A stretch of DNA of 39,093 nucleotides. It comes from Candidatus Amphirhobacter heronislandensis (lineage in GTDB: Bacteria; Pseudomonadota; Gammaproteobacteria; Tethybacterales; Tethybacteraceae). The stretch is taken from contig MEIE01000010.1 of the NCBI GenBank assembly GCA_001750625.1, forward strand, positions 1 to 39,093. The letters run 5' to 3'. The translations under genes and the position numbers were made by a program. Under the pieces are notes generated by a model, which ran no database searches, was not told the DNA's origin, and saw only the letters and a list, made by a program, of their open reading frames with translations. Of the stretch, positions 487-9,435 are shown piece after piece. Numbering within the stretch: the first letter of the stretch is position 1; each line of letters begins with the position of its first letter.

Positions 487-2556
487 TTGGAGGTCGCCGA
501 GTTCGCGGCCCAGGCCCACGCCGGCCAGCAGCGCCACAACGGCGCCCCCTACATCACCCATCCGGTCGCGGTGGCCTGCATCGCGGCGGGCTGGCACCTC
601 GACGAGGAGAGCGTGGCGGCGGGGCTGCTGCACGACGTGGTCGAGGACTGCCCGTACAGCGTCGCCGACCTCGAGGAGCGCTTCGGCCCGAAGGTCGCGG
701 CGATCGTCGACGGGGTCAGCAAAATCGAGCGCCTCGAGCAGTTCGAGCCGCCCGGCAGCCGCGAGCGCCGGCAGGCGGAGAGCTTCCGCAAGCTGCTGCT
801 GGCGGTGGCGAAGGACTGGCGGGTGCTGTTGATCAAGCTGGCGGACCGCCTGCACAACATGCGCACCCTGGCGAACGTCCCTCGCCGCAGCAAGCGGGAG
901 CGCATCGCCGACGAGACCCTGGACATCTACGCGCCGCTGGCCGAGCGGCTGGGCTTCCAGCAGGTCAGGGACGAGCTGCAGATGCTGTCCTTCGAGCACC
1001 GCCACCCCTTGCGCTTCGCGGCGCTCAGCAGCGCCTTAGAGCGCTCGGCGGAGCGGCAGCGGGTGGCGCTGCCGAAGATCCGGCGGCAGCTGACGGCGGG
1101 ACTGGAGAAAGCGGGGATCAAGGCGACGCTGCAAAGCCGCAGCAAGAACGTGTACTCGGTGTACCGCAAGATGGTCGACAAGGACCTGAGCTTCCGCGAG
1201 GTGGACGACCTGATCGGCTTCCGCCTGGTCACCGAAAGCCGGCTGGACTGCTACACGGCGCTCGGCGTGGTCCACGAGAAGTTCCGGCCGGTGCCGGAGA
1301 AAGTGAAGGACTACATCGCGCAGCCGAAGGTCAACGGCTACCAGTCGCTGCACACCACGGTGCTGGCGCCGAACGGCAACATCATCGAGCTGCAGATCCG
1401 CACCAAGGAGATGGACCAGCTCGCCGAGGTCGGGGTGGCGGCGCACTGGGAGTACAAGTCCAGCAACGCCGCGGCCCACGGCGGCGAGGCCGCGATCCAG
1501 CACGACACCAACAAGCAGCTCGACAACCTGTTCTCGATGAGCAAGCTCGGCATCGAGCCCGGCGAGTTCCTGCGCAACCTGCGCCTCGACCTGTACCCGG
1601 ACGACATCTTCGCCCTGACCCCCCGGGGCGAGGTGATCCAGCTCAACCGCGGCGCGACGGTCCTCGACCTCGCCTACGCCGTCCACACCGACCTGGGCAC
1701 CAAGGCCGACCACGCCCTGGTGAACGGGACGCGGATGCCGATCTCGACCAAGCTGAACTCCGGCGACATCGTCGAGGTGAGGACCGCCGCGCACGTCGCG
1801 CCCAAGCCGCAGTGGCTGGGCTACGTCGCCACCCCGAAGGCGCGGACCCAGATCCGCCACCAGCTCAAGGAGGCCTGGAACGCCGAGCTGGTGCAGCTGG
1901 GGGCGCGGCTGCTGGCGCAGGCGCTGCAGCGCTGCGGCGGCGACTTCGCCACCTTGGACCCGAACCGCTACCTCAACTACGTGAGGCACAACGCCGGCCT
2001 CGACAGCAAGGAGCAGCTGCAGACCCAGCTGGCGCTGGGGATCTACCAGGCGGACGTGGTGGCGCGGGACCTCATGGGCGCGAAGGCGCGGACCGGCGGC
2101 CGGGCCGAGGGTATCAAGGTCCGCGGCGACCGGCACGCGGGCATGGTGCGGGCCTCGTGCTGCGAGCCGCTGCCGCCGGAGCCGGTGGTGGGCGTGATGA
2201 AGCGGGCCGAGGGGGTGCAGATCCACCGGCGCGGCTGCCCGGCGGTGGCGAAGCGGCTCGAGGCCGGCGACTGCGTCGAGCTGGAGTGGGAGGCGGGCGA
2301 GGACGCGCTGTACCAGGCGGCGCTGCGGCTCGAGTGCACCAACCGCAAGGGCCTGATCGCGAACGTGCTGGGGCAGTTCGGCTCGCAGCAGGTCAACATC
2401 GTCACCCTGAGCCTCGCGAGCGCCGAGCAGGACAACCCGGTGGCGCGGATCGAGCTGGTGGTCGAGGTGGCGGACGGGCCGCAGCTCGAGCGGCTGCTGC
2501 GGACCCTGAACCGGATCGCCGGGGTGACGGCGGCGCGCGAGAAGCTGCCGGTCTAG
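487..2556 (+). CDS. spoT: Bifunctional (p)ppGpp synthetase/hydrolase (RelA/SpoT family)
   Basis: HD motif LLHDVVED, synthetase motifs (DDLIGFRLVTES, ELQIRT), TGS and ACT domains recognisable; the true start is probably upstream of the TTG at 487. Confidence 0.93.
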   Translation: MEVAEFAAQAHAGQQRHNGAPYITHPVAVACIAAGWHLDEESVAAGLLHDVVEDCPYSVADLEERFGPKVAAIVDGVSKIERLEQFEPPGSRERRQAESFRKLLLAVAKDWRVLLIKLADRLHNMRTLANVPRRSKRERIADETLDIYAPLAERLGFQQVRDELQMLSFEHRHPLRFAALSSALERSAERQRVALPKIRRQLTAGLEKAGIKATLQSRSKNVYSVYRKMVDKDLSFREVDDLIGFRLVTESRLDCYTALGVVHEKFRPVPEKVKDYIAQPKVNGYQSLHTTVLAPNGNIIELQIRTKEMDQLAEVGVAAHWEYKSSNAAAHGGEAAIQHDTNKQLDNLFSMSKLGIEPGEFLRNLRLDLYPDDIFALTPRGEVIQLNRGATVLDLAYAVHTDLGTKADHALVNGTRMPISTKLNSGDIVEVRTAAHVAPKPQWLGYVATPKARTQIRHQLKEAWNAELVQLGARLLAQALQRCGGDFATLDPNRYLNYVRHNAGLDSKEQLQTQLALGIYQADVVARDLMGAKARTGGRAEGIKVRGDRHAGMVRASCCEPLPPEPVVGVMKRAEGVQIHRRGCPAVAKRLEAGDCVELEWEAGEDALYQAALRLECTNRKGLIANVLGQFGSQQVNIVTLSLASAEQDNPVARIELVVEVADGPQLERLLRTLNRIAGVTAAREKLPV

Positions 2557-3329
2557 GCGGCCCGGCGGCCGGCGTACAGCACGGCGGCGGCGGCGGCGAG
2601 CAGCGGCAGCGACAGCAGCTGGCCGGCGCTGAGGCCGGCGTACAGGCCCATGTGGGCGTCGGGCTCCCGGAGGAACTCGACCCAGAAGCGGATGACGGCG
2701 TAGCCGGCCAGAAAGGCCGCGGCCACGTGGCCGGGGCGGGCGCCCCGCCAAAAAACCACCGCGAGCAGCAGCGCGAACAGCAGCGGGCCCTCGGCGAGCA
2801 GCTCGTAGAGCTGGCTGGGATGGCGGGCCAGCCCGTCGCCGGCGGCGGGGAAGACCATGCCCCAGGGCAGGCCGGTGGGCCGGCCCCACAGCTCGCCGTT
2901 GATGAAGTTGCCGAAGCGGCCGAGGGCGAGGCCCAGCGGCGCGCCGACCGCGAACAGGTCCGCCAGCCGCAGGACGGGCTCGCCGGCGAAGCGCGCCAGC
3001 AGCCAGCAGGCCAGCGCCATGCCGGCGACGCCGCCGTGGAAGGACATGCCGCCCTCCCAGATCGCGAACAGCCACAGGGGGTCGGCGCGCAGCACGTCCC
3101 AGCCGTAGATCAAGGCGTAGCCGAGGCGGCCGCCGACCAGGCTGCCGAGCAGCGCGGCGGCGAGGATGTTGTCGTGGACCCTGCGGCTGCGGGGGTCGCG
3201 CAGCAGCCGCGGCGCGAAGCGGCTGGTGACCGCCATGAACTGCAGGGCGGCGGCGAACCACAGGACGCCGTACCAGTGGATGGCGAAGCCGAAGAAGCTG
3301 GCGGCGACGGGGTCGAAGGATACGGTCAT
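2553..3329 (-). CDS. lgt: Prolipoprotein diacylglyceryl transferase
   Basis: MTVSFDPVAASFFGFAIHWYGVLWF, GGRLGY, WEGGMSFHGG, GRFGNFINGELWGRPT, RHPSQLYE motifs; start set at the internal ATG (3327-3329) rather than the longer ORF start. Confidence 0.95.
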   Translation of the reverse strand: MTVSFDPVAASFFGFAIHWYGVLWFAAALQFMAVTSRFAPRLLRDPRSRRVHDNILAAALLGSLVGGRLGYALIYGWDVLRADPLWLFAIWEGGMSFHGGVAGMALACWLLARFAGEPVLRLADLFAVGAPLGLALGRFGNFINGELWGRPTGLPWGMVFPAAGDGLARHPSQLYELLAEGPLLFALLLAVVFWRGARPGHVAAAFLAGYAVIRFWVEFLREPDAHMGLYAGLSAGQLLSLPLLAAAAAVLYAGRRAA

Positions 3330-3455
3330 GGGATGCCGGGTGGGCTGCGGGATATTGTAAGAGGCGGTGGCGGGAACGCCCGGATTTATGGAGAAAAAAT
3401 TTGTTCTACAAAATAACCGGCAAGAGATCCAGGCCTTTGGCATGGAACTTTGCAT

Positions 3456-4310
3456 CTATTTCTTTGAGGAAGTCGACTTTATGCTCCTGGGCTTTTCATA
3501 GTTTTCGCTCTCATTTCTCGCCCTGCTTATCGTTATGAAGTCGCTCTCCTTTCTTTCCCTAAAAAAGTCCCGGCCCATCCTGCGCCCGGCCTCATGCAGA
3601 GAAATCCCCTCTTTCTCCTTAAGCCTTACCGCGGCCTCGGACGGCTTTGAAAAATTAAGGTGCATGCAACCGCTAGGCGTCAGACTGGGAAAAATATTCC
3701 ACCCCCTTCGGAACGATTTCTCCCTCATTTCCTTTAGAATTTTTATTTCCGCTTCCGTGAGTCTATTCGGCAGGACTACATCCACATTCAGTATTGCTAT
3801 ACTTGCATGCATGAATGCATCGTCTCTCGCTGCTGCTGGAAATTTTTCATCCCTAATTTTTAACGCTATTTTTTCAAGCTCCTGCGCCCGCTCCTGCAAA
3901 AAGTAGTACTCTCGAATTGTCGAGCGATCATATAAATAATAAAAAGGAGAAGCCTCTGTTATCAACCACCCTTCTCTTACTTTATTTTGGCCTTTCCCCA
4001 TCTCTAACGCCTCTTCGTTCTCCAGAATGCGCCGGGCTGTTTTCTTTGGATTTATCAAAAGGTCCGCTATGAGATCTTGCAGAACATACTCGGCTCTTCG
4101 CAACCGCAGTAAAAGTGCGAAAGGGAGGACGCAAAGAATCAGCCCCGCTCCGGCGGCAACTACTTTAAGAGAGCCCGCGCGCGCCTCTACTTGTTCAAGT
4201 AGCTGCGAGGAGAGCAAGGCAATCTGCTCATCTAGGGCCCATAACAAGAGCGCGCCACCAACCCAAGCCGAGAAAATTGCGGCGGCTATGTAGAGCAAAG
4301 CTCTCATCAC
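3456..4310 (-). CDS. Orphan protein with two N-terminal TM segments and a charged cytosolic domain
   Basis: 284-aa ORF in an AT-rich island; hydrophobic stretches at about aa 1-25 and 48-68; no family recognised. Confidence 0.7.
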   Translation of the reverse strand: MMRALLYIAAAIFSAWVGGALLLWALDEQIALLSSQLLEQVEARAGSLKVVAAGAGLILCVLPFALLLRLRRAEYVLQDLIADLLINPKKTARRILENEEALEMGKGQNKVREGWLITEASPFYYLYDRSTIREYYFLQERAQELEKIALKIRDEKFPAAARDDAFMHASIAILNVDVVLPNRLTEAEIKILKEMREKSFRRGWNIFPSLTPSGCMHLNFSKPSEAAVRLKEKEGISLHEAGRRMGRDFFRERKESDFITISRARNESENYEKPRSIKSTSSKK

Positions 4311-4336: not shown

Positions 4337-4344
4337 TTATTTAG
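4337..4344. repeat. Left copy of 8-bp target-site duplication TTATTTAG
   Basis: Identical to 5023-5030; directly abuts inverted-repeat end CCCGCT. Confidence 0.85.
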
Positions 4345-4399
4345 CCCGCTTATATACTTAGCTTGACAGGCTAATCCACAAAGCCGCCTGGATGATAGC

Positions 4400-4702
4400 C
4401 TATTCAGCGACAGGCTTGGTGAAGTTCAGGTTGCGGTTGGTGCTGATATTTGCCACTTTCGCCCAATCGTAGGCGAGCAGCCAGTCATGCAGCTCGGCCC
4501 TGTCCCTTTTCAATACAATACCAGTAGCGAGCTTGTCAGTGCGTCTTTCCTTCGATCTGGCGGGAACGGGCTTTACAAGTTGCCCGTGCCTAACGCCTTT
4601 GGGAATAAATAGATTGCACAGGTGCTCTTTTTTGAGCTCCGTGCCGCGGTAATCGACGCGGAAGAAGTTCGCGTAGCTGGCGCAAGTCGATCCACACCAC
4701 AT
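4400..4702 (-). CDS. 100-aa orphan protein carried by the mobile element
   Basis: ORF MWCGSTCASYANFFRVDYRG...NFTKPVAE wholly inside the TIRs; no recognised family. Confidence 0.5.
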   Translation of the reverse strand: MWCGSTCASYANFFRVDYRGTELKKEHLCNLFIPKGVRHGQLVKPVPARSKERRTDKLATGIVLKRDRAELHDWLLAYDWAKVANISTNRNLNFTKPVAE

Positions 4703-4781
4703 AACAGCGGCATTATAACCGCGAATGCCAGCTATTCTAGCGGACTTTGCCCTGCAAAGATGCGAGATTCGGCTCTATATA

Positions 4782-4790
4782 TGCTAAAAT
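4782..4790 (+). promoter_or_regulatory. Extended -10 promoter element TGCTAAAAT
   Basis: TGnTAAAAT; predicted start about 7 nt downstream coincides with the 5' edge of the stem at 4797; no good -35. Confidence 0.5.
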
Positions 4791-4796
4791 TCGAGC

Positions 4797-4872
4797 CCGA
4801 GGAGGTGGCCCGAAGGCCTCACGCTAGGACGCGCTTTGGCCAAAGCTGTTACACTTAGACCTGCCTCCTCGG
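4797..4872 (+). ncRNA. Candidate structured small RNA (about 76 nt, three-way-junction-like)
   Basis: Perfect 9-bp closing stem CCGAGGAGG (4797-4805) / CCTCCTCGG (4864-4872) enclosing hairpins GTGGCC-CGAA-GGCC(T)CAC and GCTTTGGCCAAAGC. Confidence 0.4.
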
Positions 4873-5022
4873 AGTCTTCTGCATTTGTGGATTTGTTCCC
4901 GCGGTTAGGGTCGCGCCCGGCAGCGCTGCAGTAATCCTATTCTACAACAAAACACCCTATCTTTTGCTGGTCGCGTGGCAAGCCCCTATATGTAGTGCCT
5001 GTCAAGCTATCTATATAGCGGG

Positions 5023-5030
5023 TTATTTAG
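5023..5030. repeat. Right copy of 8-bp target-site duplication TTATTTAG
   Basis: Identical to 4337-4344; directly abuts AGCGGG. Confidence 0.85.
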
Positions 5031-5042
5031 TTAAACATCGAG

Positions 5043-5281
5043 ATGACACACGCAAACATTTCTCCGTCTTATGACGGCAAGACCTTCCTGTCACCAGCGA
5101 GGTCGAAGGCATGAGCCGGGCGGAAATCAAGCGCCTGATCATCGCCAACGGCGGCACGATCGGCGGCTCGGTGTCGAGCAAGCTGAGCTTTGTCAACAAG
5201 ATCCAAAAGGCGGAGGAGCTGGGCATCATCATGATGCCGGCGGTGGAGTTCATCGAGGCCCTCCAAAGCGTGGAGGCCTGA
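5043..5281 (+). pseudogene. Small stand-alone BRCT-domain protein, frameshifted near 5090
   Basis: Frame 1 from ATG 5043: MTHANISPSYDGKTFL; frame 2 from 5090: VTSEVEGMSRAEIKRLIIANGGTIGGSVSSKLSFVNKIQKAEELGIIMMPAVEFIEALQSVEA*. Joined product reads as one BRCT domain. Confidence 0.7.
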
Positions 5282-7758: not shown

Positions 7759-9435
7759 GTGGCCCACCCCGGGAAGACCCGCAGCGGCGAGATAACGGAC
7801 GGCGACGCCCGCGCGCCGAACCGCTCCATGCTCCGCGCCGTCGGCTTCGGCGACGGCGACTTCGCCAAGCCGATTTGCGGCGTCGCCCACAGCCATTCGG
7901 ACCTCACCCCCTGCAACGCCAGCCTGGCGCCGCTGGCCGAGGCGGCCGCCGCCAGCCTCAAGGAGGCCGGCGTCATGCCCCAGACCTTCGGGACCATCAC
8001 GGTCTCGGACGGCATCTCGATGGGGACCAAGGGCATGAACTATTCGCTGGTCTCGCGGGAGGTCATCGCCGATTCCATCGAGACCGTCGCCAACGCCCAG
8101 CGCATGGACGGCATCCTGGTGGTCGGCGGCTGCGACAAGAACATGCCCGGCGGCATGATCGCGATCGCCCGCCTCAACATCCCGGCGGTCTACGTCTACG
8201 GCGGCACCATCATGCCCGGCAAGCTCGACGGCGAGGACCTCACCATCGTCAGCATCTTCGAGGCGGTCGGCCAACACGCCGCCGGCAAGATCGGCCGCGA
8301 GCGCTTCGAGGCGGTCGAGCGCAGCGCCATCCCCGGCCCGGGCTCCTGCGGCGGCATGTACACGGCCAACACCATGTCCAGCTCCATCGAGGCCCTCGGC
8401 ATGGCCCTGCCCTACTCCTCGACCATGGCCGCGATCGCGGCCGAGAAGGTCCAAAGCGCCAAGGAGGCCGGCGCCGCGCTGGCTGAAGCGGTCAAGCGGG
8501 GCATCCGCCCCCGCGACATCATGACCAAGGAGGCCTTCGAGAACGCCATCGTCACCACCATGGCGGTCGGCGGCTCGACCAACGCCGTCCTGCACCTGCT
8601 CGCCATCGCCCAGGCGGCCGAGGTGGACCTGTCCATCGACGACTTCGCCCGCCTGCGGGCCTCGTCGCCGGTGATCTGCGACCTCAAGCCCTCGGGCCGC
8701 TACGTGACCATCGACCTGCACCGCGCCGGCGGCATCCCGCAGGTGATGAAGCTGCTGCTGGACGCCGGCAAGCTGCACGGCGGCTGCCTCACCATCACCG
8801 GCAAGACCATCGCCGAGACCCTGGCGGAGGTCCCGGCGGCGCCGCCGGCGGACCAGGACGTCATCCGGCCGCTGGCCGAGCCGCTGTACGCCGAGGGCCA
8901 TCTGGCGATCCTGAAGGGCTCCTTGGCCCCCGAGGGCGCCGTGGCCAAAATCTCCGGCATCAAGGCCACCAGCTTCAAGGGCCCGGCGCGGGTCTTCGAG
9001 GACGAGGAAAGCGCCCTGCAGGCCATCTTGGCGGGCAAGATCAAGGCCGGCGACGTGGTCGTCATCCGCAACGAGGGCCCCAAGGGCGGCCCGGGCATGC
9101 GGGAGATGCTGGCGCCGACCTCGGCGATCATCGGCCAGGGCCTGGGCGACAGCGTCGCGCTGATCACCGACGGCCGCTTCTCCGGCGGCACCTACGGCTT
9201 CGTCGTCGGCCACATCGCGCCCGAGGCCGCCGTCGGCGGGCCGCTGGCGCTGGTGGCCGAGGGCGATGTCGTCAGCATCGACGCGAAGGCGCTGCGCCTC
9301 GACGTCGAGGTCGACGAGGCCGAGCTGCAGCGCCGCAAGGCCGCCTGGCAGGCGCCGGCGCTCGAAACCAGGGGCGCCCTGGGCAAGTACGTCCGCATGG
9401 TCGCCTCGGCCAGCGCCGGGGCGGTGACGGGCTAG
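7759..9435 (+). CDS. ilvD: Dihydroxy-acid dehydratase
   Basis: [55 protein letters not shown] motifs. Confidence 0.96.

Follow-up and report, generated by a model that had tools for sequence, protein, structure and literature searches.

We describe a 678-bp element without a transposase gene, at positions 4345-5022 of the window (the whole 39,093-nucleotide stretch of DNA that was analysed), on a contig of Candidatus Amphirhobacter heronislandensis. It is bordered by imperfect terminal inverted repeats (TIRs) and by a perfect 8-bp target-site duplication (TSD). Overall, we consider it probable that this is a non-autonomous element of the MITE/MIC kind, mobilised in trans by a DDE transposase, most likely of the IS1595 family.

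Borders and target duplication

The element and its flanks comprise the following features:

4337-4344, no strand: left TSD copy, TTATTTAG (sequence)
4345-4371, plus strand: left TIR, IS1595-subgroup-like (CCCGnTTATATACTT ... GACA; end matrix)
4400-4702, minus strand: ORF100, a 100-codon orphan and possible cargo gene (ORF and codon-position GC)
4770-4900, minus strand: possible structured leader 5' of ORF100 (fold z-score)
4997-5022, minus strand: right TIR, reading inward CCCGCTATATAGATAGCTTGACAGGC (match to the subgroup matrix needs a 1-nt gap)
5023-5030, no strand: right TSD copy, TTATTTAG (sequence)

Both arms start with CCCGC: the left one (27 bp) reads CCCGCTTATATACTTAGCTTGACAGGC, and the right one (26 bp), as given above, is the reverse complement of 4997-5022. 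When compared, they show 24 identical columns, two mismatches and one 1-nt gap. The direct repeat adjoins both outer TIR borders exactly and cannot be extended by one base on either side; thus, the duplication is exactly 8 bp. The original prediction, which had placed arms with one gap and a few differences at these positions and a perfect 8-bp repeat against their outer ends, is borne out in coordinates and in letters.

Across the entire window, we looked for 24-nt inverted ends with an 8-bp direct repeat on their outer sides and scored the pairs against 40 block shuffles; the element pair ranked first, with a score of 19.5 (shuffle maximum 17.5, n = 40). Could inverted and direct repeats merely adjoin here, without transposition? 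Lower-scoring pairs are present in this GC-rich window, the runner-up, itself GC-rich and probably due to chance, reaching 18, and a 13-bp exact inverted pair would by itself be no rarity. Yet the arms agree in 24 of 27 columns, each outer border adjoins an exact copy of the 8-bp repeat, and a rough estimate by arithmetic puts such long similar arms with exact outer repeats at about 1e-7 per window; moreover, the target is AT-rich, and the GC content of the segment is 0.52 versus 0.66 for the window. We regard mere coincidence as highly improbable.

No transposase was detected inside the element by Pfam, PHROGs or NCBIfam, nor when all six frames were searched with an HMM of the IS1595 subgroup, which confirms that no transposase-like ORF lies within. 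TIRs, TSD and profile searches together support the predicted DDE-type insertion with an 8-bp duplication and without a transposase.

Possible IS1595-type ends and the likely transposase family

A script that looks around transposases for inverted ends bordered by a perfect direct repeat of 8 bp recovered several subgroups of IS1595 (PF12762). One of them, recovered with the L024 transposase and its relatives in IMG/VR, has the end consensus GGCAATTATATACTTGACAAAGCA and 8-bp duplications; its elements mostly measure 2.0-4.3 kb, with room for passenger genes. We take this subgroup to be ISNwi1/ISSod11-like, from the GGnnATTAT signature, and a plasmid homologue of its transposase is annotated 'IS1595 family transposase'. 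The subgroup ends contain the blocks TTATATA and CTTGACA, with a spacing of 6 between TTATATA and GACA in 50 of the 56 ends measured. Their first dinucleotide is GG in 52 of 88 ends and CC in 20, as in CCCGATTATATGG (L245) and CCCAATTATATACTTGAC (L265), and the CC terminus was therefore dropped as an objection to IS1595. As far as the family is characterised in the account of PMC8101967 (citing Siguier 2009), it makes 8-bp duplications and has the DDE_Tnp_IS1595 domain; additional genes are known to travel in its members (transporter IS; PMC3129680).

The left end of the element, CCCGCTTATATACTT-AGCTT-GACAGGC, fits the subgroup over its first 15 positions, anchored at the terminus, and scores 10.5 bits on the subgroup matrix. 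Counting the end itself, only 2 of 78,154 window positions score as high, as do 2 of 20,000 shuffles. The right end, CCCGC-TATATAGA-TAGCTTGACAGGC, needs a 1-nt gap to fit the matrix, and in both ends the TTATATA and GACA blocks stand five bases further apart than in the subgroup (the extra bases being AGCTT in the left). Matrices of other IS1595 subgroups gave a far poorer match or none, and the TSD has the same size as in the collected IS1595 elements. Since no DDE_Tnp_IS1595 transposase is found inside, the element is not an IS1595 insertion sequence itself, but possibly a derivative of one.

The original prediction had named IS1595 or IS66 as compatible families. The left-end match favours the former; IS66 also makes an 8-bp duplication but has a characteristic GTAA terminus, absent here, where both ends start CCCGC, and judged from the ends alone it was rejected. 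Two further families were likewise set aside, as matrices built from 10 control ends each match neither end of the element: ISL3, with ends of the type GGCTC..TCGTGTGGGT, and IS256, with ends of the type GAG.GTGTTCA...CTGTGTCA. Transposase searches in the element's own genome, which covered IS1595, ISL3 and IS256, recovered no IS256 transposase and a single, weak match to the ISL3 profile (31.7 bits) that does not look like a transposase. A match of this kind, at about profile positions 78-197, is found a single time in the majority of genomes in the class (e.g. G000:C112:43777-44142), inside an ORF of about 400 codons that is probably a conserved non-transposase protein.

It is conceivable, albeit unlikely, that the element was moved by a transposase of another family with 8-bp duplications, the likeness of the left end to IS1595 being convergence. 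The deviating right end and block spacing would agree with this, as would the absence of these exact ends from every IS1595 element found; a few bases are also in common with IS1016-type ends, GGGGCTGTCCTAGATAAGTT, so that likeness of ends is not specific evidence. On the other hand, the ISL3 and IS256 matrices fail, the own genome has no IS256 and, for ISL3, only the weak profile match above, and the left end fits the IS1595 subgroup when anchored at its terminus. We place the transposase in IS1595 with about two-thirds confidence.

Related elements in the genome and in IMG/VR

On contig C200 (L017 929-1906), the own genome contains a single decayed IS1595 copy, interrupted by several stop codons and changes of frame. 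Its ends, GGGGCTTACACGG and GGGACTTATATAGG, have a block RCTTAYAYR in common with the element, and in its flanks, ATTGATAG and ATTGATAA, 7 of 8 target-duplication bases still match. Related elements have thus been present in the host lineage; the ends of the decayed copy nevertheless differ from those of the element. By eye, the copy adjoins a gene that reads like DUF3800.

A scan of IMG/VR with the subgroup end returned 15 rows, each a pair of ends with a perfect 8-bp duplication, and 13 of them contain a transposase recognised by the subgroup HMM; among these 13, L350 is counted from both strands, and L327 and L343 look identical. The remaining two have no match to the HMM: L302 5696-6012 (317 bp; AGGAGTCG) and L365 170-1448 (1279 bp; AAATAAAA). 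Thus, non-autonomous derivatives of the subgroup do occur. One of the 13, L295 4102-4930 (829 bp), has only a truncated transposase, beside a 90-codon ORF; L302, L365 and L295 all have subgroup ends and lie on contigs classed as viral. The subgroup block CTTGACA contains a -35-like TTGACA, and in L295 and L365 a plausible -10 can be seen by eye 17 bp after it, which suggests that the subgroup end supplies a promoter for the genes inside.

Copies, partners and genomic neighbourhood

The copy number of the element in its own genome (87.6% complete, 239 contigs) is one. Short repeats often drop out of draft assemblies, and for this reason the single copy is a lower bound. At a tolerance of 3 mismatches over 20 fixed positions, no second copy of the ends was found in the own genome or in four relatives of the same order. 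The element itself matched nothing else among the 55 relatives' genomes, nor anything in plasmids. The end search likewise gave no match in the class genomes, and none in IMG/VR beyond 14 unpaired ones; these, together with a single end match on GTDB contigs (a 19-mer in Bartonella) and 76 matches to CCCGnTTATATACTT, none of them paired, were put down to chance. The exact block RTTATATACTTGAC has only ten matches in 369 class genomes, among which the pairing script found no transposase-less pair.

The further copies sought in the own genome and its relatives were thus not found. A full-length insertion sequence with the same ends was equally missing from the own genome, the 369 class genomes, IMG/VR and the GTDB contigs, the nearest approach in the own genome being the decayed IS1595, with ends that are related and not identical.

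The element lies between lgt (2553-3332, minus strand) and ilvD (7759-9435, plus strand). Here and below, the names lgt, ilvD and spoT were read off translations and backed by sequence matches. In G001, the one further genome of this family, the order spoT, lgt, ilvD is kept, and lgt and ilvD are about 70-90 bp apart, with the G001 pieces on two contigs. The 4.4-kb stretch that separates the two genes in the window, and holds a 284-codon orphan ORF, the element, a BRCT-like fragment and two outer-membrane-type genes, has no counterpart there; the lgt-ilvD region is therefore variable. As G001 lacks the insertion neighbourhood, an empty site with one TTATTTAG cannot be read from it. The orphan ORF (3456-4310, minus strand; GC 0.48), located between lgt and the element and also without a G001 counterpart, has no match in Pfam, PHROGs or phages, nor in NCBIfam above weak noise. 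Beyond the right border, a 63-codon stretch (5090-5281, plus strand) gives a partial BRCT match in Pfam (E 8e-4, just under the cut-off). It is probably a gene fragment, resembling the C-terminal part of a DNA-ligase-type protein and showing a change of frame near 5089.

Neither other copies nor an empty site came to light, an outcome that the original prediction had named as refuting it. Because the genome is a draft and the family has only one sequenced relative, this weakens the case for mobility rather than refuting it. The other refuting outcome that it had named, retention of the segment at the same place in divergent genomes, was not seen in the genome searches.

Interior of the element

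ORF100, whose stop codon ends 28 bp inward of the left TIR, may be a gene and travel as cargo. Its codon-position GC (GC1 0.51, GC2 0.43, GC3 0.66) is compatible with coding, and its length is unexceptional, 100 aa being reached in 172 of 2000 shuffles. No relatives were found in Pfam, PHROGs, NCBIfam or PDB, by tblastn against plasmids and phages, or in GTDB and IMG/VR, and an AlphaFold model built without an alignment was unusable (pLDDT 35). About 23 of its residues align to the N-terminal region of the transposase in the subgroup profile, at 2.6 bits and near chance level; this alignment was noticed post hoc and is equalled by 11 of 2000 shuffles, and the idea that ORF100 is a transposase fragment was rejected.

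Alternatively, the element could be the dead remnant of an insertion sequence whose transposase disappeared through internal deletion and drift; it would then have no cargo function, its ORF would be incidental and no mobilisation would have followed. We find this improbable. A single copy, ends that have diverged and need a gap, an ORF of ordinary length, the faint transposase alignment and the presence of a decayed IS1595 in the same genome would all suit it. However, the 8-bp duplication is still perfect, and the last insertion is therefore not ancient; the alignment consists of one short block near chance, and its place and orientation are wrong, as the gene of autonomous elements starts close inside one end.

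Upstream of ORF100, a possible leader would adopt a multi-branched fold closed by CCGAGGAGG/CCTCCTCGG (4797-4805, 4864-4872). The region folds more stably than shuffles chiefly on the minus strand (z -2.7, versus -1.5 on the plus strand). A search of Rfam up to E 10 gave no family for it, and no library tried contains a homologue. Unlike in L295 and L365, no sigma-70-type promoter was found in the element. A distinct IS1595-type lineage, with ends that carry 5 bp more between the blocks and moving small cassettes with an RNA leader and without a transposase, could be imagined, but we think it rather doubtful.

Proposed origin and comparison with known systems

Mobilisation in trans, as a MITE or MIC, had been predicted and is the best reading of the element; on the other side stand the lack of further copies and of an intact partner. 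We infer that a DDE transposase of the IS1595 subgroup with GGCAATTATATACTTGACAAAGCA ends, supplied in trans, would bind the paired ends. The 678-bp segment would then be cut out (released or copied) and inserted at a cut staggered by 8 bp in an AT-rich target, repair of which would leave the TTATTTAG duplication. The small orphan ORF, perhaps together with a structured leader, would travel as cargo. There is no evidence of activity or of copy-number success. The element is one more example that transposase-less cassettes can bring orphan ORFs into little-sampled bacteria, and further hidden cassettes can be sought with the end consensus, beginning GG or CC, of an IS1595 subgroup that carries passenger genes.

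With the ISNwi1/ISSod11-like IS1595 elements, the element shares the 8-bp duplication, at its left end the sequence [GG/CC]nnnTTATATAC.T followed by GACA, and an AT-rich target, such targets being common among them. Unlike them, it is devoid of a transposase, its right end has diverged and its end blocks are five bases further apart; the autonomous elements of the subgroup are also larger, at about 2.0-4.3 kb versus 678 bp. Similarly to MICs and MITEs (PMC3129680), it combines paired IS-type ends and a TSD with the absence of a transposase and an assumed activation in trans, and like MICs it has an ORF inside, here a candidate cargo gene. It departs from them in being single-copy, MITEs typically occurring several times per genome, and in that no intact cognate insertion sequence was found. 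The same architecture is seen in L302 and L365, equally transposase-less and with 8-bp duplications, although their ends fit the subgroup consensus closely and those of the element less so. Overall, the element seems to be an ordinary, single-copy addition to an already known kind.
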